From positions 1 through 29,017 of IMG/VR virus record IMGVR_UViG_3300007346_000149: a stretch of 29,017 nucleotides of DNA, one strand, 5' to 3'. Position numbers and translations under genes: made by a program. Below are positions 1 through 19,545 of the stretch, piece by piece. The notes under the pieces are model-generated. The model was given only the letters and a program-made list of their open reading frames with translations. It was not told the origin of the DNA and ran no database searches. This DNA is from a virus. Numbering within the stretch: position 1 is the stretch's first letter; every line of letters begins with the position of its first letter.

Positions 1-114
1 GGTCCAGTGGGGTTTTGGGGTGTTTTTGGGGGGTGTTTGTGTGTCTGGTTGGGGGTGGTGTGGTTGTGTATCGGTTGTGTGGGTTTTGGTTAGGTGGTGG
101 AGGGGGTTTCGCAT
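1..114 (-). CDS. partial Pro/Thr/His-rich protein, runs off the window edge
   Basis: An open reading frame on the minus strand starts at ATG 114-112 and stays open to base 1, giving the first 38 residues. AAAGG lies about six bases before the ATG and is a good ribosome binding site. The visible protein is dominated by Pro, Thr, His, Gln and Asn, with no hydrophobic segment and no recognisable domain. The coding strand is strongly C/A-rich, so the plus strand looks G/T-rich. A sigma-70-like promoter lies about 55 bases upstream. The product is unknown. The composition resembles a disordered linker or N-terminal extension. The call rests on start, ribosome site and promoter agreeing, not on homology. 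Confidence 0.45.
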   Translation of the reverse strand, partial: MRNPLHHLTKTHTTDTQPHHPQPDTQTPPKNTPKPHWT

Positions 115-167
115 TTTGGCCTTTCTTATACTGTTGGTGGGTAGTATTAGTAGGCTCTTTGGTTGTT

Positions 168-197
168 AGTTTAGTTTGGGTTTGGGGGGTGTGTCAA
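168..197 (-). promoter_or_regulatory. sigma-70-like promoter
   Basis: On the minus strand TTGACA (plus 192-197) is followed after 18 bp by TAAACT (plus 168-173). It sits between the small ORF ending at 202 and the Pro/Thr/His-rich ORF starting at 114, so it probably drives the latter. The -35 box is perfect consensus and the -10 matches at four of six positions. Confidence 0.5.
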
Positions 198-201
198 GTG
201 G

Positions 202-288
202 TTACCGGTCTCGTAGGGTTAGGTCTATCAGCATCATGAGGACGATTGCACCGAATACGAGTGTGTATGCTTTTACTACAGGGTCCAT
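202..288 (-). CDS. 28-residue putative single-pass membrane peptide
   Basis: A short minus-strand ORF from ATG 288 to TAA 202 encodes 28 residues. After a short polar start (MDPVVK) comes a hydrophobic stretch of about 17 residues, then a charged end (LRDR), the layout of a small single-span membrane protein. There is no clear ribosome binding site upstream. It lies 90 bases downstream of the previous gene in the same direction. Similar tiny membrane ORFs occur elsewhere in this window (3795-3887). The function is unknown and the call is tentative. Confidence 0.35.
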   Translation of the reverse strand: MDPVVKAYTLVFGAIVLMMLIDLTLRDR

Positions 289-378
289 ATCGAGTGTTTC
301 TGTATAGTGTAAATGGGTGCTTTGGTGGGTTTTTGTATCGTGGAGGTGTTTAGCGGTCGTTTATTCGGGGTGGGTTGT

Positions 379-687
379 TTACTTTCTTGAGGATAGGTGG
401 GCTTGGACGTAGGCTTCGTAGAGTCCGCAGAGGAGGTCGTCTAAGTCGCTTAGTCCTTGTGTGAGGAGGGTCCATATCTCTTCTTGTACGAGTTTTTCGA
501 TCTTTTCTCGGTCTTCGGGGGTGGCTTCGGTGAGTAGCCAGCGGTAGGTGGCGGAGTCTGGACTGTTCCTTTTGAGTTCGGTTTTAGCAAACTTTTCCAT
601 CTGTTCCCGGCTAAGGCTGATGGTTACGATGGCGTTGTCGGGTTCGTATTCGAGGGGTAGTTCGTGTGGTTCATGAATGCTTAGCAT
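379..687 (-). CDS. conserved-looking acidic hypothetical protein, 102 aa
   Basis: The start is set at ATG 687 rather than a longer in-frame Met at 801, because AAAGGAG lies seven bases before 687 and the longer form would overlap the upstream gene by over 100 bases. With this start the overlap with the upstream gene is only 17 bases. The protein is soluble. Residues 1-20 are acidic and Pro-rich. A charged helical segment follows (SREQMEKFAKTELKRN), then an acidic helical C-terminal half (EDREKIEKLVQEE, SDLDDLL). No domain is recognised. It is the last clear gene of an overlapping run of small genes from about 2457 downward, so it is probably co-transcribed with them. Confidence 0.7.
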   Translation of the reverse strand: MLSIHEPHELPLEYEPDNAIVTISLSREQMEKFAKTELKRNSPDSATYRWLLTEATPEDREKIEKLVQEEIWTLLTQGLSDLDDLLCGLYEAYVQAHLSSRK

Positions 688-1057
688 GGTTATGCTCCTT
701 TGCTGTCCAGGCGAGAGCTTGTCTGCCGGAGGCGTTGACGAATGTGAGCTGGGTTCCTGTGGTTTCATCGACTGCAGGGACGATAAGTTCGTGTTTTTCA
801 CGTAGGGTTCGGACTTGCCTTCGTGCTGTCTCGGTGCGGGGCATGAGACCTGCGTCTACTGCTGCGAGTGCGATCTCGTCGTCGGTGGCTGGGCCGTGAT
901 CCGTAAGCCAGTTGAGAATCCAACGGTGGCTGTCTTTTAGTTCTAGCGAAATGGACTGAGCCGCAGCCTTTGACGTTTCTGGGTCGGTGGAGCGGGCTAG
1001 TTTGTGAGCGTCGTAGTCTAGGGTAAGCTGGTGCTGTTCGTGCGAGTAACTACTCAT
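671..1057 (-). CDS. putative winged-helix DNA-binding protein, 128 aa
   Basis: The start is ATG 1057, whose A-T-G-A overlaps the TGA stop of the upstream gene. A longer in-frame start at 1084 lacks that coupling. Residues about 26-90 look like a winged helix: DPETSKAAAQSI, then RWILNWLTDHGPATDDEIA (helix and turn), then a basic helix TARRQVRTLREK. A beta-like segment and a KEHNHAKHS tail follow. This layout is common in small phage proteins that bind DNA or resemble MarR/ArsR wing-helix folds. The target and role are unknown. It may be a regulator of this phage. Confidence 0.7.
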   Translation of the reverse strand: MSSYSHEQHQLTLDYDAHKLARSTDPETSKAAAQSISLELKDSHRWILNWLTDHGPATDDEIALAAVDAGLMPRTETARRQVRTLREKHELIVPAVDETTGTQLTFVNASGRQALAWTAKEHNHAKHS

Positions 1058-1323
1058 GTGTTTGCTTTCTCGGGTTCTTGCCAAATGATACGAGTATGGC
1101 AGTCTTCTATGAAGAAATGGTTATCTACGATGGGGGCCGAGATACCGATCAGGCCGTATGTGCCCTCATATGCAGCTATTCTAGCGCCCTCAATTTGGGC
1201 TAGCAACCCTAACTGGTCGGTTTCTTTGATGATCGTTCCGTCGGTTTTGTCTGTAATTTTGACGTATTTGCGGTCGGTATCTATGTACCAGTAGTTGTCT
1301 CCGGCAGTGAATTCGTAAATCAT
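1054..1323 (-). CDS. hypothetical protein, 89 aa
   Basis: This ORF is joined by four-base ATGA overlaps to the gene before it (start 1323 against stop 1320) and the gene after it (stop 1054 against start 1057), so translation is probably coupled. The N-terminal half alternates short beta-like stretches rich in aromatic and charged residues (YEFTAGDNYWYIDTDRKY). A mid helix (LGLLAQIEGARIA) and a hydrophobic GLIGISAPIV segment follow. There is no signal peptide and no convincing transmembrane span. The fold resembles small beta-barrel phage proteins, but no family is recognised. Confidence 0.65.
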   Translation of the reverse strand: MIYEFTAGDNYWYIDTDRKYVKITDKTDGTIIKETDQLGLLAQIEGARIAAYEGTYGLIGISAPIVDNHFFIEDCHTRIIWQEPEKANT

Positions 1324-1508
1324 CGGGGGGTGTTACCTACTGTTCTGATGAAATTTCTGGTTTCGGTCATATGGTAGTAGCCGCTCCGTAGAGCTTTATA
1401 CGTGGGTTTGATGCTTAAAATCATGAATACTGCCGCCGCCGTACCCCACAGGGTACGCTCTTTCCACACCGGACGAGACGGTCTTGTTTCTAACTTAATT
1501 GTCTTCAT
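1320..1508 (-). CDS. small single-pass membrane protein, 62 aa
   Basis: The start is ATG 1508, which overlaps the TGA of the Cys-rich gene upstream in the ATGA pattern. A longer start at 1553 would overlap that gene in another frame and is rejected. Residues about 18-32 form a short hydrophobic span (LWGTAAAVFMILSI) flanked by basic residues on both sides (RPSRPVWKER before, KPTYKALRSGYY after). The tail is polar. There are no catalytic motifs. It could be a minor membrane-acting phage protein. The function is unknown. Confidence 0.6.
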   Translation of the reverse strand: MKTIKLETRPSRPVWKERTLWGTAAAVFMILSIKPTYKALRSGYYHMTETRNFIRTVGNTPR

Positions 1509-1660
1509 GTTGGTTTTTTGGTACCCGGGGGAAGATGGCATCCGCACGGACATAGGGGCCTCGCTTTTCTCTTCTCTTTGTCGTAAAGTTTACCTCCCAC
1601 ACACTCTGTTCCGGGCGGAACTTTACAAACATGGTTAGTATTTTTACGACGTTTAGCCAC
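1505..1660 (-). CDS. Cys-rich mini-protein, likely zinc-binding, 51 aa
   Basis: A GTG start at 1660 is preceded by GAGGA about eight bases upstream, and the ORF ends with a TGA that overlaps the next gene's ATG. The 51-residue product starts MAKRRK and contains H10, C12 and C20, then CPCGCH at residues 37-42, with the repeated PPGT element at 15-18 and 45-48. The spacing of Cys and His suggests a small zinc ribbon or treble clef. It is basic overall, so nucleic-acid binding is possible. The coupling on both sides and the ordered Cys pattern argue that this frame, not the competing frames in the same DNA, is translated. Confidence 0.6.
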   Translation of the reverse strand: MAKRRKNTNHVCKVPPGTECVGGKLYDKEKRKARPLCPCGCHLPPGTKKPT

Positions 1661-1671
1661 TAGTTAAATCC

Positions 1672-1854
1672 TCAAATTTGGTCCATTGAGTAGGTCTTTT
1701 CTTCGATCTGTTCCCATGTTTCATCCAGCCGAGCAAGCCTCTCTTGGAAGGTTCTATTCCATTCTGAGAGGTCTTTTTCTAGCTGCCGAACCAGCCAAAC
1801 GTTAGCAATGATGGCGGATGCGATCAACGATAGCATGACGGTGACTAGAATCAT
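1672..1854 (-). CDS. membrane-anchored coiled-coil protein, 60 aa
   Basis: ATG 1854 overlaps the TGA of the upstream gene by four bases. Residues 2-22 form one hydrophobic span (ILVTVMLSLIASAIIANVWLV). The rest, from about 24, is a charged heptad-like helix (QLEKDLSEWNRTFQERLARL, then EQIEEK). The shape, an N-terminal anchor plus a coiled coil, fits small phage membrane proteins such as inner-membrane spanin-like or holin-accessory proteins, but no specific family is seen. It is far from the recognised lysis genes at 26-27 kb, so a lysis role is only a possibility. Confidence 0.65.
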   Translation of the reverse strand: MILVTVMLSLIASAIIANVWLVRQLEKDLSEWNRTFQERLARLDETWEQIEEKTYSMDQI

Positions 1855-2147
1855 GTCTTTTTTCGTCTTTCGATAGGGAATTTACGGGTAAATTTAAACC
1901 GCTTAGCCTTGTTCCGCATGGAAGTTCTGAGCGTATAGGGGATGAAATCGTCGCCTCGGCGGGCTTTCATGAACCCTGAATTGCTCTGCTGCCTCATACT
2001 TTTACGGGAAAAATAGTCCAATAACGACACCAAAAGGTTAGCTAACGCTACCTTCATCAGTATGTTGCCAGGGTAAACAGCAATAAACAACAGCAGCACA
2101 GGTGTGGATAGCTGCCATCGTAAGAAGTAACGTAAGAATTGCCTCAT
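1851..2147 (-). CDS. small membrane protein of the phage RWQLSTP type, 98 aa
   Basis: ATG 2147 is preceded by GAGGA about ten bases upstream. The N-terminus has RWQLSTPVLLL, a motif I recall from small membrane proteins in many tailed phages. Two hydrophobic segments follow, at about residues 12-25 and 30-45, with a Pro-Gly-Asn turn between them. The C-terminal half is strongly basic (RKSMRQQ, RNKAKRFKFTRKF, ERRKKT) and would stay in the cytoplasm. It overlaps the next gene by four bases. The molecular role of the family is unknown to me. The family resemblance is from memory, not a search. Confidence 0.65.
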   Translation of the reverse strand: MRQFLRYFLRWQLSTPVLLLFIAVYPGNILMKVALANLLVSLLDYFSRKSMRQQSNSGFMKARRGDDFIPYTLRTSMRNKAKRFKFTRKFPIERRKKT

Positions 2148-2150
2148 AAA

Positions 2151-2318
2151 TTACAGTTCCTCATCCGACGATAGGGTCAGCGAACGGGCCGACTGCATCA
2201 AATCGAGCAGCCCGTTCTGCATATCGGCGGCTGAAACCACAGTGTGGCCCGCAACCTGCTTCAACATATCCTCAATTTGAGAGATAAAGTCGGTGACATC
2301 CATAGTTGAATCAGTCAT
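2151..2318 (-). CDS. small acidic phage protein, 55 aa
   Basis: This gene runs from ATG 2318 to TAA 2151. AAGGAT lies about six bases before the start. It overlaps the end of the upstream 48-aa gene by eight bases and ends three bases before the next gene's start. The product is acidic and helical, with a core VTDFISQIEDMLKQV followed by ADMQNGLLDLMQSARSL, ending SSDEEL. There is no signal or membrane segment. Two amphipathic helices suggest a small dimer or a partner-binding protein. The function is unknown. Confidence 0.6.
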   Translation of the reverse strand: MTDSTMDVTDFISQIEDMLKQVAGHTVVSAADMQNGLLDLMQSARSLTLSSDEEL

Positions 2319-2457
2319 TTCTATCCTTTGGTAGTGGCTTGACGTACTCGCCGGGAGGCTGAGTAATCAAACCGATGAACGGTTGCGAGAATGTATATCC
2401 CTCAAACGGGTCTTCGCCGTAACGTAGCTTACGTAGCCACTTCTTAAACTTCTTCAT
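2311..2457 (-). CDS. small basic hypothetical protein, 48 aa
   Basis: The ORF runs from ATG 2457 to TGA 2311. The product starts with a very basic stretch (MKKFKKWLRKLRYG) and continues with DPFEGYTFSQPF and a Pro-rich end (TQPPGEYVKPLPK). It overlaps the next gene's start by eight bases. No clear ribosome site precedes it, and the bases upstream belong to the heat-shock-like fragment that ends 18 bases before. The composition suggests binding to nucleic acid or membrane. The function is unknown. Confidence 0.5.
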   Translation of the reverse strand: MKKFKKWLRKLRYGEDPFEGYTFSQPFIGLITQPPGEYVKPLPKDRND

Positions 2458-2474
2458 GTATATACTGATTCTAC

Positions 2475-2630
2475 TTACGAGATCTCGATCTCAATCGGCT
2501 GCTGCTCTTCCGGAATAACCTTCTCTACATTGATACTCAGCAAGCCGTCAGCCATCGACGCAGACATGTTACGAAGTGTAACGGAGATAGGTGCTAGTTG
2601 GGGGGCGACCCCTTCACACTTGCCGTGGGA
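2475..2630 (-). pseudogene. orphan C-terminus of an IbpA/Hsp20-like small heat-shock protein
   Basis: The minus-strand frame is open from just after a TAG (2631-2633) to TAA 2475. Its last 26 residues read as the end of a small heat-shock protein: MADGLLSINVEKVIPEE, then QQPIEIEIS. This closely follows the known IbpA ending (NGLLYIDLERVIPE, then P and an IEI motif), including the C-terminal I-x-I that anchors sHsp oligomers. The first ATG (2567) has no ribosome site and would give only 30 residues, far short of the usual 130-150. The rest of the alpha-crystallin domain is not found in any minus-strand frame upstream. It is therefore a remnant, or the downstream part of a gene interrupted by the structured region next to it. 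Confidence 0.5.
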
Positions 2631-2838
2631 CTAGCTGCTCCACGTCCACTACACTTGTACGCATGTAGTGGTCATAATGCTAAGCCGTACAGCCTCCAGA
2701 GAAAAGACTGGCAAAGTCTTACGGTGTGAACTGCCATCCACCCGCCTCAACGCCACCTCCCCACCGAAGTGGGGAACGCTCTGAGCCTAAAGCCTATTTA
2801 ACGTCGCTCAGACGACGGTACGATCATCGGGTGGTACC
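2593..2838 (-). ncRNA. candidate structured non-coding RNA or insertion, unidentified
   Basis: No convincing gene covers this stretch, but hairpins follow one after another: 2593-2598 with 2630-2635 (GCTAGT/ACTAGC) enclosing GGGG-cga-CCCC at 2602-2612; 2646-2653 with 2664-2671 (8 bp); 2704-2709 with 2715-2720; 2759-2764 with 2769-2774; 2802-2806 with 2813-2817; and 2817-2821 with 2834-2838. On the minus strand the 2759-2774 hairpin has a C(UUCG)G tetraloop, which is stable only in that orientation, so the RNA would be read in the same direction as the genes. A consensus promoter at 3142-3170 lies upstream. I do not see a group I or II intron core, tmRNA or known riboswitch. It could be an intron-like or transposon-end RNA. 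Confidence 0.35.
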
Positions 2839-3111
2839 GACAACCTCGCCCCACGCCATGCCCTTGTTGGCACGGCTGTTCGCCTCACGGACCCAAGCGG
2901 TAGCTGCCGGGTTCAGGAAACGATCGTACTTACGGTTGCCCTGCAGAGAACGAATCTCACGGGGCGACATACCGGCAGCGTGCAGCGCATTACCGATAAG
3001 GCCACGAGGATGACGATACGTCACCATCTTCGAGGAACGGTTACGGGCCGTCGGGGCACGCTCCGCAACCTCAGTAGCCGCCTGAATAATTGCCTTCTTC
3101 GTAATCAACAT
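2824..3111 (-). CDS. basic hypothetical phage protein, 95 aa
   Basis: ATG 3111 is preceded by AAAGGAG at ideal spacing, and a perfect-consensus promoter lies about 30 bases further upstream, so this gene is probably strongly expressed. The product is basic and rich in Arg, Ala and Asn: KKAIIQAATEVAERAPTARNRS, then YRHPRGLIGNALHAAGMSPREI, then GNRKYDRFLNPAATAWVREA. There is no membrane segment. The charge pattern would suit a nucleic-acid-binding or structural protein. No family is recognised. Its stop codon lies inside the first hairpin of the structured non-coding region that follows. Confidence 0.7.
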   Translation of the reverse strand: MLITKKAIIQAATEVAERAPTARNRSSKMVTYRHPRGLIGNALHAAGMSPREIRSLQGNRKYDRFLNPAATAWVREANSRANKGMAWGEVVGTTR

Positions 3112-3141
3112 AATCTCCTTTGTTTATCGTTGACTGTGGGT

Positions 3142-3170
3142 ATTATACCAGCCTCGGCGCAGTGTGTCAA
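3142..3170 (-). promoter_or_regulatory. perfect-consensus sigma-70 promoter
   Basis: On the minus strand TTGACA (plus 3165-3170) and TATAAT (plus 3142-3147) are separated by 17 bp, matching the sigma-70 consensus at all 12 positions with optimal spacing. It overlaps the end of the deaminase gene and precedes the 95-aa gene starting at 3111, leaving a leader of about 24 bases that carries AAAGGAG. Confidence 0.85.
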
Positions 3171-3541
3171 GGCCAGACTCTAAAGAACGTCCACTCACCA
3201 TTCTCATCAGTGTAGTAAACCCTCTTGATTCCATGCTCCCTAATCGCTTCCATGCAACGAGAACAAGGCTTAGCAAGCGCCAAATTGCCGCTCCGAGTAA
3301 CACGAGCAACAAACAACCTAGCACCCCGAGTATCACCAGCATTCCGCAAAGCATCCGCTTCAGCATGAATAGAACAATGGAAATGCTTAGAGTCCTCCAC
3401 AACGGAAGGATCGTTCTTCACACGATTAAAACCCGTGGAAAGCACAGAACCGCCTCTCCATACAACAGAGCCTAGACGCCACTTATCATGATCAGACTTT
3501 TCGGCAGTGGCGACAGCAATTGTCCTCGCCGTATTACTCAC
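3167..3541 (-). CDS. cytidine/deoxycytidylate-type zinc deaminase
   Basis: The product belongs to the zinc-dependent cytidine/dCMP deaminase superfamily, which deaminates cytosine bases in nucleosides or nucleotides. With a GTG start at 3541 it has 124 residues. H59-A60-E61 supplies one zinc ligand and the catalytic Glu, and PCSRC (C93, C96) supplies the other ligands. GFNRVKNDP resembles the substrate loop before the active site. A TTG at 3553 in the same frame is an alternative start. GTG is preferred because GAG lies seven bases upstream. It overlaps the preceding gene by eight bases. It is shorter than the second deaminase at 4677-5228 and not closely similar to it, so the exact substrate is open. 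Confidence 0.85.
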   Translation of the reverse strand: MSNTARTIAVATAEKSDHDKWRLGSVVWRGGSVLSTGFNRVKNDPSVVEDSKHFHCSIHAEADALRNAGDTRGARLFVARVTRSGNLALAKPCSRCMEAIREHGIKRVYYTDENGEWTFFRVWP

Positions 3542-3785
3542 TGTAATGCTCAATAAGATTCTCTAAAGCATCCGTAATGAAACGGGTAACACTTTGCTTA
3601 ATAATTGCATCAGCAAGATCGCCGTCAATTACAGCAATTTCTTTACCTGAACCGTCTGTAATGCAGATAGCGTTAGCATCAGAAATGATCTTGATTGCTT
3701 CACATATTGCATCAGCGTGAACTCCAGACACTACCTGAGCATAACGAATCTCATTTAAAAGTTTAACTACAGTGTTATCGTCCAT
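3534..3785 (-). CDS. hypothetical protein, 83 aa
   Basis: ATG 3785 follows AAGGAG at seven bases. The product is mostly helical at both ends (TVVKLLNEIRYAQVV and FITDALENLIEHYSE), with a central beta-like part NAICITDGSGKEIAVIDGDLADAI. There are no Cys pairs, signal peptide or membrane span that would suggest a function. It ends inside the start region of the deaminase gene, so the two are probably translated together. No family is recognised. Confidence 0.65.
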   Translation of the reverse strand: MDDNTVVKLLNEIRYAQVVSGVHADAICEAIKIISDANAICITDGSGKEIAVIDGDLADAIIKQSVTRFITDALENLIEHYSE

Positions 3786-3794
3786 GATGCTCCT

Positions 3795-3887
3795 TCATTC
3801 CCAGTCCCCGTCAGTGTTGAGCAGCCACGTCATCAGAATAATGATTCCGATAGCGCAACCGATTCCAAAAGCGTGCCAGTGATTCAT
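3795..3887 (-). CDS. 30-residue single-pass membrane peptide, probably leaderless
   Basis: The ORF runs from ATG 3887 to TGA 3795. After MNHWH comes a hydrophobic run of about 17 residues (AFGIGCAIGIIILMTWLL) and a polar tail NTDGDWE, the pattern of a small membrane protein. There is no ribosome binding site. Instead a strong promoter has its -10 box ending six bases before the ATG, so transcription would start at the A of ATG. The next gene, with a good ribosome site, starts only ten bases after its stop. The function is unknown. Confidence 0.55.
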   Translation of the reverse strand: MNHWHAFGIGCAIGIIILMTWLLNTDGDWE

Positions 3888-3893
3888 ACCGTC

Positions 3894-3922
3894 ATTTTAG
3901 CACACGCACATAGGCACGTCAA
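3894..3922 (-). promoter_or_regulatory. sigma-70 promoter with leaderless geometry
   Basis: On the minus strand TTGACG (plus 3917-3922), 17 bp, TAAAAT (plus 3894-3899). Exactly six bases separate the -10 box from ATG 3887, so the expected +1 is the A of that start codon. No Shine-Dalgarno sequence is present, which fits a leaderless transcript. Confidence 0.7.
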
Positions 3923-3924
3923 GA

Positions 3925-4131
3925 CTAGTGCTTGTTCAACACCTCGTTAGCGTACTCGGCAAACTCTGACGCATCATTCTTAAACCAGAACGGGAACACG
4001 GCGTGGATAAGCAGCATAAAGCCAATCACAATAAACTCTACAGCAAAACCTGCGGCGAACAAGAAATGATCGCCGTATGTCATTTTATTTGACTTCGGGT
4101 GATCCGTAAACTTTTGAGAAAAAGCCTTCAT
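3925..4131 (-). CDS. DUF6356-like small membrane protein, 68 aa
   Basis: ATG 4131 follows CAGGA at about seven bases. The product starts with FTDHPKSNKMTYGDHFLFAAGFA and continues with one long hydrophobic span (about residues 27-47, including HAVFPFWF). That combination, FTDHP near the N-terminus, TYGDH before the span and HAVFPF within it, matches what I remember of DUF6356, a family found in bacteria and aquatic phages whose function is unknown. The start lies inside the end of the upstream 55-aa gene (47-base overlap in another frame), so expression is likely coupled. The family assignment is from motif memory only. Confidence 0.7.
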   Translation of the reverse strand: MKAFSQKFTDHPKSNKMTYGDHFLFAAGFAVEFIVIGFMLLIHAVFPFWFKNDASEFAEYANEVLNKH

Positions 4132-4252
4132 CTTTGCGTCCTGATTCTTTTACCTCAACTTCTTTTGGGGTTTCGACTTGTTTAGAAACCAGCTTAATAG
4201 CGGGACGTTCACCCAGCATTTCTTCAGGTAAACTATCCCACCAGTCAGGCAT
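4085..4252 (-). CDS. small hypothetical protein, 55 aa
   Basis: The ORF runs from ATG 4252 to TAA 4085 and starts one base after the thioredoxin stop codon, so translational coupling is likely. It overlaps the next gene by 47 bases. The product is polar and charged: MPDWWDSLPEEMLGERP, then alternating Lys and Glu (VETPKEVEVKESGRKDEGFF). There is no membrane segment. It looks like a disordered or helical small protein without known relatives. The case for it rests on the tight spacing and the fact that it fills the gap between two coding genes. Confidence 0.5.
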   Translation of the reverse strand: MPDWWDSLPEEMLGERPAIKLVSKQVETPKEVEVKESGRKDEGFFSKVYGSPEVK

Positions 4253-4253
4253 G

Positions 4254-4640
4254 TTACATCTCTTTCGTTTCCGTGTTCAAGAACGAACCCAAATCTTTCT
4301 GAAGCTGCTCTAACGGCCTAGCGCCTTCGAGCTTCTCTACTATTTTACCATCAACAAATACAGCTAGTGTAGGAATGCTGGTAATATCAAATCTTTCCAT
4401 CAAGAGAGGAGCGTAGTCTACTTCTACTTTTACGACCTGCATTTCGTCAGCGTACTTGGCTGCGAATTCGTCAAGCACCGGAGACTGCATAGCGCACGGG
4501 CCGCATCAGTCTGCCCAAAAGTCAACGAGCACCGGCTTAGCAGATGTTGAAATAATGTTTTCAAACTGTTTCTCGTCTACAGGTACAGCGTACCCTTCAG
4601 CCAGTACTACTCTTTTTGATGGTTCTTCATTTCTTCGCAT
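4254..4640 (-). CDS. trxA: thioredoxin interrupted by an in-frame TGA in its active site
   Basis: Read from ATG 4640 (AGGA seven bases upstream), the frame encodes a full-length thioredoxin of 128 codons, but codon 45 (plus 4506-4508) is TGA. It falls where the Trp of the WCGPC motif should be: VDFWAD, stop, CGPC (C46, C49), with the rest of the fold intact (KVEVDYAPLLMERFDITSIPT with the cis-Pro, then VDGKIVEKLEGA). TGA is a normal stop elsewhere in this phage, and TGG encodes Trp three codons earlier. The cause could be a nonsense mutation, a base-calling error, readthrough, or a restart at Met 51 giving 78 residues without the active site. If functional it would be a disulfide reductase. 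Phage thioredoxins can serve reductases or polymerases. Confidence 0.8.
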
Positions 4641-4676
4641 GTTTATATCCTACCATTTATATACTTACTCAGCAAG

Positions 4677-5228
4677 TCAAGACTTACCTACTTTGGGCCA
4701 CTCTTTCCAACGGCTTAATGAATGCGAATCAAAATACTTCTTAGTTGTATCATGTACCGGCATAACTTCATCCCTATCATACAGAATCAAATCAATGCTA
4801 GACGCAACAAACACTTCCTCGACCTTAGAAAGCGCCGGACGGTTTTCCCGAATACCATACACAATCCTGACGCCGCTGTTCGCAATAAGCTTAGCGCACT
4901 CAAGGCAAGGCTCTCCATTCACATACATCGCAACACCGCCCATGCGGGCACGGGCGTTAAAGTCGCTGTGGAGCAACGCATTAGCTTCAGCGTGAACAGC
5001 GATGCAGTCACTGTAGTCAGATGACTTATGATCGCTTCCTGCAAGAGCACGAGGACATGCGCCTTGATTGCAATGAGCAGCGCCCCGAGGAGAACCGTTG
5101 TAGCCTACGCCAAGAACAAAACCTTCAGAGTCAACAATGATAGCCATGTACTGGCTTTTAGAACAGGTAGAGAAAAGCTTGGCTCCCTGATCTGCCCATT
5201 GTAGAAACTTAAAATCTTTTTCACTCAT
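4677..5228 (-). CDS. dCMP deaminase (ComEB-like)
   Basis: The product is a zinc-dependent deoxycytidylate deaminase, which converts dCMP to dUMP for dTTP synthesis. With ATG 5228, whose start overlaps the upstream stop by eight bases, it has 183 residues. A longer in-frame start at 5315 would run deep into the oxygenase gene and is rejected. H79-A80-E81 and PCLEC (C108, C111) form the zinc and catalytic site. GYNGSPRGAAHC (42-53) and GACPR match the nucleotide-binding and structural-zinc loop of phage dCMP deaminases. It forms an apparent operon with the oxygenase upstream and thioredoxin downstream, consistent with nucleotide supply during infection. Confidence 0.92.
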   Translation of the reverse strand: MSEKDFKFLQWADQGAKLFSTCSKSQYMAIIVDSEGFVLGVGYNGSPRGAAHCNQGACPRALAGSDHKSSDYSDCIAVHAEANALLHSDFNARARMGGVAMYVNGEPCLECAKLIANSGVRIVYGIRENRPALSKVEEVFVASSIDLILYDRDEVMPVHDTTKKYFDSHSLSRWKEWPKVGKS

Positions 5229-5964
5229 GCTCGTGATCGTGATGGTGGCCGGGGCCGTGGTAGTTAGGAAGGTCCTCTTCATTGAAGTGATCGTGGAAAT
5301 GCTCTTGCATCTCATCAGGACGATGAACCAAATGATTCATGTCTTCCTGCATGATAAACGTGGTGACTATGTACTTGTCTTTATCAAACGAAATCTCACC
5401 ACGGTGGGGGTACAGCCAGTGACACGGAAAAATAAGCACCCTCCCTGCTACGGGCTTAACGGAAAGCTCCTGACGGGTGAAGGTAGTTTCTCCACCTTCG
5501 TCAACGTCGTTAAGGTAAACAATGACAGCCAGCATTCTGTCAAATGAACTGCCGAACGGCCCACCGTCGATATGTTCGTCGTACTTGCCGTGGCCAACAT
5601 CGTATTTTTGAAACTGGTAACCCATGTCTTGTAATGGGAAGCACTGCTGGCTTAGCCCTGGGTACTGGTTGACGTAATGGTTAACGCACTTTACCAGTCC
5701 GGCGTGAATGTCTTGTTCAGACCAGCCTCCTCCCATGGAGTACAGTTCGTCTCCCATTGCGGCAGAGATGTTCATGTCAGTTGAGTTTTTGATAGATTGA
5801 TCCACCCCACCGACCATTTTACCGGGGTTCAGAACTTGCATTTCTTCTAGTCGGTTCCAATGACGTTCGACTAGATCAATAATGTTCTGACATGCGGCCT
5901 TGTCTACAACATCGTCGTAAATTCCGATGCCTGACCACCGCCCTAGCGGAAACTCTATATTCAC
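5221..5964 (-). CDS. 2-oxoglutarate/Fe(II)-dependent oxygenase (prolyl-4-hydroxylase type)
   Basis: This 247-residue protein is a 2OG-Fe(II) dioxygenase of the P4Hc type, which couples oxidative decarboxylation of 2-oxoglutarate to substrate hydroxylation. H131-x-D133 (in KYDEHIDGG) and H187 (PHRGE) form the iron triad, and K195 or K197 with the YIVTTF strand would hold 2OG. MLAVIVYLNDVDEGGETTF is the typical core strand and turn. The last 27 residues are His-rich (EHFHDHF, then HGPGHHHDHEHE), an unusual metal-binding tail. GTG 5964 overlaps the upstream TGA (GTGA). Similar oxygenases are common in aquatic phages next to fibre genes. The target is unknown, perhaps a structural protein or host surface protein. 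Confidence 0.9.
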   Translation of the reverse strand: MNIEFPLGRWSGIGIYDDVVDKAACQNIIDLVERHWNRLEEMQVLNPGKMVGGVDQSIKNSTDMNISAAMGDELYSMGGGWSEQDIHAGLVKCVNHYVNQYPGLSQQCFPLQDMGYQFQKYDVGHGKYDEHIDGGPFGSSFDRMLAVIVYLNDVDEGGETTFTRQELSVKPVAGRVLIFPCHWLYPHRGEISFDKDKYIVTTFIMQEDMNHLVHRPDEMQEHFHDHFNEEDLPNYHGPGHHHDHEHE

Positions 5965-6716
5965 GATCCGTTTCCCGTTGGCATGAAGCCAATGTTGGGT
6001 GATTCAATAATTAGTGGAACAAGCCAATCTTCTACAATCGTTCCTGTAATGTCCGGCGGGGCGTCTGCTACCTGGGCATTCGCATCGCCTTGCAAATACT
6101 TCTGGACTTTGTTCGGAGGCACGTTCGTCCAAATCCAATCTCGCACGTCATCTGGCATCTCTAGCTCTGCAAGCATTCTAGTAGCAGTACTAGCCATGGG
6201 TTCGGTTGAGCCGAAATGTTGGCGCACGATCTCCCATTCTAGCATCAAGCGAAGAATTTCTTGTAGCGTCCGTGCTGATACAGAATGACGGTCGGCTACA
6301 GTATTGCTTTCGGCAGTAGCGTTTGACGACTCAAGATACACAACCTGTCCACCGGCTACAGGGGAACCAAACACTGAACTAATATGCGTAAGTTCATAAA
6401 ACAGAAGATGGTGACTGCCTGTTAAGGGATCAGCCGCAGTGGATGCTCCGCAGTTACATTGTTCAGTAATTTCGTTCCAAACATGCAACCCCTTCGGGCC
6501 ATACTGATTGGTGCCAGCATCACAACGCTGATGAGTATTACCATCAGCATCAACAACTTCTTCTAGCTCCACATCAGCAATCAAAGATGTGAAAGAAAAC
6601 AATCCCTTGGTGTTGTCAATGGTCCACGTTGACCCATCTTGTGTAATGGTTCTAGCAGGCAACTTGTTGTAGTAACCTACTCCACCAAGGTGCTCGGAAT
6701 GTTCTGAAAATGACAC
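5961..6716 (-). CDS. hypothetical protein following the fibre genes, 251 aa
   Basis: GTG 6716 is preceded by AAGGG about eight bases upstream. Residues 1-110 are beta-rich and Gly/Thr-rich (GGVGYYNKLPARTITQDGSTWTI) and contain a CNCG at about 87-90. Residues 150-215 are helical (LQEILRLMLEWEIVRQHF, then TATRMLAELEMPDDVRDWIW). The C-terminus is hydrophobic and proline-containing. No domain is recognised. Its position between the collar fibre and the oxygenase, with only 12 bases to the former, suggests a tail-associated protein or a substrate or partner of the oxygenase. That is inference from context only. Confidence 0.65.
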   Translation of the reverse strand: MSFSEHSEHLGGVGYYNKLPARTITQDGSTWTIDNTKGLFSFTSLIADVELEEVVDADGNTHQRCDAGTNQYGPKGLHVWNEITEQCNCGASTAADPLTGSHHLLFYELTHISSVFGSPVAGGQVVYLESSNATAESNTVADRHSVSARTLQEILRLMLEWEIVRQHFGSTEPMASTATRMLAELEMPDDVRDWIWTNVPPNKVQKYLQGDANAQVADAPPDITGTIVEDWLVPLIIESPNIGFMPTGNGS

Positions 6717-6728
6717 GATAAATCCCTT

Positions 6729-7685
6729 TTAGGTCTTGATAATAAACAGGAACGGTTCTACGTTTATCGTAGTCGAAACTGTTGCAGATGTCAATGCGTG
6801 ATTGTGGTTAGCAGACTGGTTACCGGCATTTGACGTAATCGTATGATTGTGATTAGCAGACTGGTTACCTGCATTCGACGTAATCGTATGGCTATGATCA
6901 GCAGACTGATCACCTGCGTTAGCATTATGGGCGTGACCAGCGTTCGCATAGTTCGTGTTCACAGTGCCAGAGTTGAAGTTATGAGAGTGCGACGCATTCT
7001 GGTTATTCGTGTTAGCGTTTGTGTTGCTGCCGTTCGACTTCGCATAACCGTGCGTGTGAGAAGCGTTCTGGTTCGTTGTGTTAAAGGTCTTAGACCACGA
7101 ATGGCGGTGGTTAGCGTTAGCGTTAGCAACCGTAATCGTATGCGAATGATCCGCAGACTGGTTGCCAGCGTTAGACGTAATCGTATGGCTATGATCAGCA
7201 GACTGATCACCTGCGTTAGACGTAATCGTATGCGCATGATCCGCAGACTGATCCCCCAAAGCCAACGCATTCAACGCAGAAGAACCACTAACCGTAGTAC
7301 CATCAGCGTTACCGCTCGCAGCAATACCAACAGGAACAAGCGCCGAAGTTCCAGGCAGATTAAACGTGGTAGAACCATCACCCGTACCATAACGGGTACT
7401 GATCGCCGTAAACAAGCTAGAATAGGTTGTGCGAGAAACCGCCGACCCGTCACACACCAGCCAACCCGAAGGTGCCGTACCGCCACCATACATGACTACA
7501 GTACCCGCAGGAATAGTTGTGCCGCCAGACTGATCCTGCCACGTAACCGTACCAGAACCATTCGTTACCAAAACCTGATCTAAAGAACCGTCAGCAGTAG
7601 GAAGCGTAAACTCACCGGTAACTTCTAAAGAAGTTGCTGAAACGGTACCGTCAGCAGTAAGACCAGTCTTAAAACTTTTAGCCAC
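6729..7685 (-). CDS. tail fibre/receptor-binding protein with collar domain and H-x-H needle repeats
   Basis: This 318-residue protein starts at GTG 7685. Residues about 57-110 are a phage tail collar domain (PAGTVVMYGG, SGWLVCDGSAVSRTTYSSLF, RYGTGDGSTTFNLP). From about 140 to 300 the sequence is made of short repeats of the type DQSADHSHTITSNAG and carries ten H-x-H motifs. In T4 gp37 and similar fibre tips, H-x-H pairs from three chains coordinate iron along a narrow needle, and the same architecture is likely here. The protein ends VEPFLFIIKT, the strand that usually closes the collar domain. An extended -10 promoter lies about 50 bases upstream. Confidence 0.85.
   Translation of the reverse strand: MAKSFKTGLTADGTVSATSLEVTGEFTLPTADGSLDQVLVTNGSGTVTWQDQSGGTTIPAGTVVMYGGGTAPSGWLVCDGSAVSRTTYSSLFTAISTRYGTGDGSTTFNLPGTSALVPVGIAASGNADGTTVSGSSALNALALGDQSADHAHTITSNAGDQSADHSHTITSNAGNQSADHSHTITVANANANHRHSWSKTFNTTNQNASHTHGYAKSNGSNTNANTNNQNASHSHNFNSGTVNTNYANAGHAHNANAGDQSADHSHTITSNAGNQSANHNHTITSNAGNQSANHNHALTSATVSTTINVEPFLFIIKT
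6786..7250 (-). repeat. tandem coding repeats of the H-x-H needle
   Basis: Two blocks of near-identical 45-48 base units (about 6786-6920 and 7127-7250) encode N-A-G-(D/N)-Q-S-A-(D/N)-H-x-H-T-I-T-S repeats within the collar fibre. The less regular middle part keeps the H-x-H spacing. Such repeats can change copy number by slippage or recombination and so change needle length. Confidence 0.75.
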
Positions 7686-19469: not shown

Positions 19470-19471
19470 AG

Positions 19472-19545
19472 TACCCCCGGTGGGACTCGAACCCACACTG
19501 TAGGCGTTTTAAGCGCCCTTTCTCTGCCAATTGGAATACGGGGGC
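19472..19545 (-). tRNA. tRNA with anticodon UAA (Leu), short variable loop
   Basis: A minus-strand cloverleaf has acceptor strands GCCCCCG and CGGGGGT with discriminator A, an anticodon stem GGGCG/CGCCT enclosing loop CTTAAAA (U33, anticodon UAA reading UUA), and a T arm GTGGG-TTCGAGT-CCCAC. Bases 3' of the discriminator are CTA, so CCA is not encoded. The variable region is only about five bases, whereas bacterial tRNA-Leu normally has a long class II arm. The D stem is imperfect (one mismatch). It has its own promoter at 19580-19609. It would help decode UUA. The identity is assigned from the anticodon and A73. Confidence 0.85.

Follow-up and report, generated by a model that had tools for sequence, protein, structure and literature searches.

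A lone in-frame TGA at the active-site tryptophan codon of a phage thioredoxin gene, private to one metagenome-assembled contig

The uncultured virus record IMGVR_UViG_3300007346_000149 contains a thioredoxin gene that is interrupted by one in-frame TGA. The window, meaning the whole stretch of DNA that was analysed, is the entire record of 29,017 bases. Its phage-type genes, assigned with Pfam, include a DNA polymerase A, a sigma-70 factor, an IMPDH/GMP reductase domain protein, a transglycosylase and deaminases. This content suggests a tailed phage, as do long open reading frames (ORFs) that look structural. No GenBank phage gave a blastn match to positions 4000-6000 of the window. The gene and its stop are placed as follows:

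4254..4640, minus strand: thioredoxin gene of the phage, with one TGA inside and 128 codons when this is read through (translation; PF00085, E=4.4e-28; seven intact homologues)
4506..4508, minus strand: in-frame TGA, codon 45, occupying the Trp position of WCGPC; TGG in all seven relatives (translation and relatives)

A first-pass annotation had described a thioredoxin frame intact on both sides of one TGA at the Trp of the active site, and both the description and its coordinates are borne out; the strand, unstated there, is minus. Translation from 4640 to 4254 gives MRRNEEPSKRVVLAEGYAVPVDEKQFENIISTSAKPVLVDFWAD, then the stop, then CGPCAMQSPVLDEF and so on to a C-terminal TKEM and the terminal stop codon. 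A DNA-level search of the frame found this single internal TGA and two halves that are otherwise intact. With the TGA read as W, the protein matches the Pfam Thioredoxin family (PF00085) at 97.7 bits against a gathering cut-off of 23.5. Under the standard code the active site reads stop-C-G-P-C in place of W-C-G-P-C, while TGG encodes Trp at codon 42, as had been noted. The position of the stop is less striking than it seems: ten one-step transitions would create a stop in the intact sister gene and four of the ten fall on its two Trp codons, so that a stop landing on the active-site Trp is no rare coincidence.

The state of the codon in relatives carries most of the argument. IMG/VR was scanned with the read-through protein, which yielded seven related loci (G001-G007), and all seven have TGG (Trp) at codon 45. 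Such a result had been named in advance by the first-pass annotation as the mark of an error or an isolated mutation. Two of the seven are very close. G001 (40,536 bases) gives a gap-free alignment to window positions 1507-29017, in which 4 of 27,511 bases are mismatched, and G002 (9,993 bases) aligns to positions 1-7592 with 6 mismatches. At more than 99.9% identity, these sister contigs belong by sequence to the same phage population as the window. Inside the thioredoxin gene each differs from the window at only two bases, 4506, where the window has TGA and both sisters have TGG, and 4494. Broader scans agreed with this picture. An IUPAC scan of the IMG/VR viral contigs for the motif FWAx-TGA-CGPC returned no stretch, and the FWAx-TGG-CGPC version returned at least 120. 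Viral contigs contained no exact copy of the 29-mer with the TGA, and a search of bacterial and archaeal genome contigs with a 29-mer permitting either base gave no hit. Apart from its stop, the gene is undecayed, with one silent difference from the sister contigs and a dN/dS of 0.16-0.24 against other lineages. Decay of the flanking frame, the mark of a plain pseudogene, is thus not seen.

The window differs from both G001 and G002 at just three bases, 4494, 4506 and 7208, whose surroundings bear on how the TGA arose. Two further features are needed here:

4494..4494, minus strand: second private base, codon 49, TGC in the window and TGT in the sisters, silent (comparison with relatives)
4494..4520, minus strand: approximate mosaic junction in the thioredoxin gene; the part upstream of it is near-identical to lineage G005-G007 and the part downstream closely resembles lineage G003/G004

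The TGA lies beside a second private base at a mosaic junction. Only 12 bp separate the two; were three sites scattered at random, such closeness would be expected with a probability of about 0.003. The gene is almost the same as in G005-G007 from codon 7 to about codon 44 and closely resembles G003/G004 from about codon 49 on, which places the apparent recombination junction at the conserved WCGPC motif. Because the gene changes ancestry at that point, the assembly graph of co-occurring strains would be ambiguous at 4494/4506. The window's base at 4494 also occurs in G003 and in G005-G007. The third private base lies in an ORF at 6729-7685 that holds internal repeats (6811-6922 and 7131-7256) and has DQSADHSHTITSNAG repeated in its translation. 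The window's base at 7208 agrees with that of the paralogous repeat copy at 6911, 297 bp away; the window and both sisters alike have C at 6911, and the two sisters do not have that base at 7208. Misassigned reads would give this pattern, and gene conversion would look alike.

Taken together, these comparisons point to a normal phage thioredoxin gene in which a private G-to-A, present in one metagenome-assembled contig, turns the active-site TGG into TGA, either as a consensus or assembly error or as a very recent nonsense mutation (probability roughly 0.93). The first-pass annotation had offered four options for the stop. Two of them, a nonsense mutation and a sequencing error, stand; programmed readthrough and a natural split are unsupported, as the stop is not shared by the sisters. 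The first-pass observation is accurate; what it describes is an ordinary nonsense base confined to one contig, and it does not speak for readthrough, a changed code or a split gene.

Between the two surviving origins, contig comparison makes the error somewhat more likely, at a little better than an even chance. Mixed reads of related strains, or low coverage at the mosaic junction, would have produced a wrong consensus. The private bases look more like the products of such a process than like a biological signal: one is the base of related lineages (4494), one is that of a paralogue (7208), and two cluster within 12 bp. Other observations speak against an error: the 27.5 kb alignment with G001 is free of indels, no other internal stop occurs in the called genes, and no donor sequence for the A at 4506 came to light.

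The other origin, a genuine nonsense mutation that arose recently and segregates among these phages, is a serious possibility, put at somewhat less than even odds. The gene would then be dispensable, or low-level readthrough of UGA by the host Trp-tRNA would restore the wild-type residue. In favour of this origin, one G-to-A transition suffices at this one-step nonsense site, nonsense mutations commonly arise by such a transition at a Trp codon, and the flanking frame is intact and undecayed. It is weakened by the other two private differences, which bear marks of strain and repeat mixing, by the clustering of two of the three, and by the failure of the viral-collection scans to return a second TGA example. 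The base following the UGA is also U, which favours termination in E. coli. If the mutation were real, most ribosomes would stop after 44 residues, and loss of function would be expected, with no active thioredoxin except a trace from the leakiness of UGA to Trp. Such leakiness is documented in enterobacteria, E. coli and Salmonella being able to decode UGA as Trp at very low frequency (PMC7918605). A stronger version, in which the UGA allele segregates as a tuned-down thioredoxin and the leakiness of the host supplies the missing Trp, strikes us as very improbable.

Several points weigh against the reading of the TGA as a private error or recent mutation. G001 and G002 may come from samples that are not wholly independent. 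The collection scans may omit the window's own record and very near ones, so that a second TGA-bearing contig could be missed. Finally, a search of 146 sequences for a donor of the A at 4506 gave none, as no 13- to 21-mer spanning that base was shared with them. Since none of these sequences carries the TGA allele, cross-mapping would account for 4494 and 7208 and leave 4506 unexplained.

Programmed UGA readthrough, UGA-to-Trp recoding or a selenocysteine-like decoding that regulates the thioredoxin would explain why the stop falls exactly at the Trp with both halves intact. These readings are unsupported because the stop is not shared even by sister contigs that are more than 99.9% identical, and TGG stands at codon 45 in all relatives. 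The genetic code of the phage gives them no help. Among 41 called genes, which were hand-picked from the ORF list, TGA is the commonest stop, ending 21, and Trp is encoded by 129 TGG against the 1 internal TGA. A genome-wide reassignment of TGA to Trp (code 4) was rejected on these counts, as the first-pass annotation had anticipated from the genes ending at 1054, 3795 and 5221, all of which do stop with TGA. The same annotation had read the local tRNA as having a UAA anticodon, and the tRNA at 19471-19545 is indeed Leu(UAA). Its suggestion that a UGA-decoding tRNA be sought elsewhere came to nothing: the window, 40,000 bases of G001 and the sequences obtained for the other relatives (up to 90 kb) yielded none, though a host tRNA might still decode UGA. 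No Rfam recoding element or SECIS-like element was found, the only Rfam matches being a Pistol ribozyme and tRNAs, and the 81 nt around codon 45 fold no better than shuffled sequences (z=0.01), with no stable structure downstream. In the titles and abstracts that a literature search retrieved, no phage thioredoxin with an in-frame UGA is apparent. With neither a conserved stop, a tRNA nor an RNA element, programmed readthrough and recoding were rejected as highly unlikely.

The weakest alternative is a natural split into a 44-residue N-terminal peptide and a protein restarting at Met51:

4254..4490, minus strand: possible restart ORF from Met51, 78 aa, without the active site; judged non-functional (ORF list; no clear ribosome-binding site upstream)

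Codon 51 is an ATG and the 78-aa ORF that it opens still matches PF00085 (E=2.6e-12), yet a functional restart is unlikely because no clear ribosome-binding site was found in the sequence preceding Met51, and with a product that would lack both active-site cysteines and relatives that are unsplit, this reading can be given almost no weight.

Side observations were made on RNA genes in the window and its relatives. A Pistol ribozyme match (73.1 bits; gathering score 34.5) lies on the minus strand at 2751-2817 of the window and is present in the sister contigs. In G003 and G004 the ribozyme scores 70.8 bits and has phage tRNA genes for Lys and Ser on either side. The Rfam matches beyond the window are:

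L016, 1245-1311: Pistol ribozyme
L018, 4776-4842: Pistol ribozyme
L019, 4005-4069: Pistol ribozyme
L005, 4243-4307: Pistol ribozyme

No match at the gathering score was found in the searched parts of G005 (L024, L025) or in G007 (L008). Near the junction that matches window positions 3549-3925, a tRNA-Lys (UUU) with a tRNA-Ser nearby is found in G003, G004, G005 and G007, and Arg and Thr tRNAs occur as well in G003, G005 and G007. The window and its sister have small ORFs at 3549-3925 in place of these tRNAs.

The TGA is of little importance in itself. The lesson is rather that, when a metagenome-assembled phage contig shows a lone in-frame stop, sister contigs should be consulted before recoding is invoked, and that private bases which cluster at mosaic junctions or are copied from repeats point to consensus error. 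Were the TGA real and recurrent, it would add a minor example of a metabolic gene of a phage with a nonsense polymorphism. Were it merely real, a trace of exact wild-type protein could arise by reading of UGA as Trp.

The closest published comparison is with the in-frame stops of Belinky et al. 2021, who took such stops only if they were common to at least two independent genomes (PMC7918605). Unlike those cases, the stop in the window is known from one contig; like them, the gene has a single in-frame stop, intact flanks and a flanking dN/dS below 1 between lineages. Among thioredoxins, WCGPC is present in all of the relatives, and the window copy differs from them in having TGA for the active-site Trp. 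In other respects it is like a WCGPC-type phage thioredoxin of PF00085, with a match over the whole domain and the SIPT (cis-Pro) motif kept.
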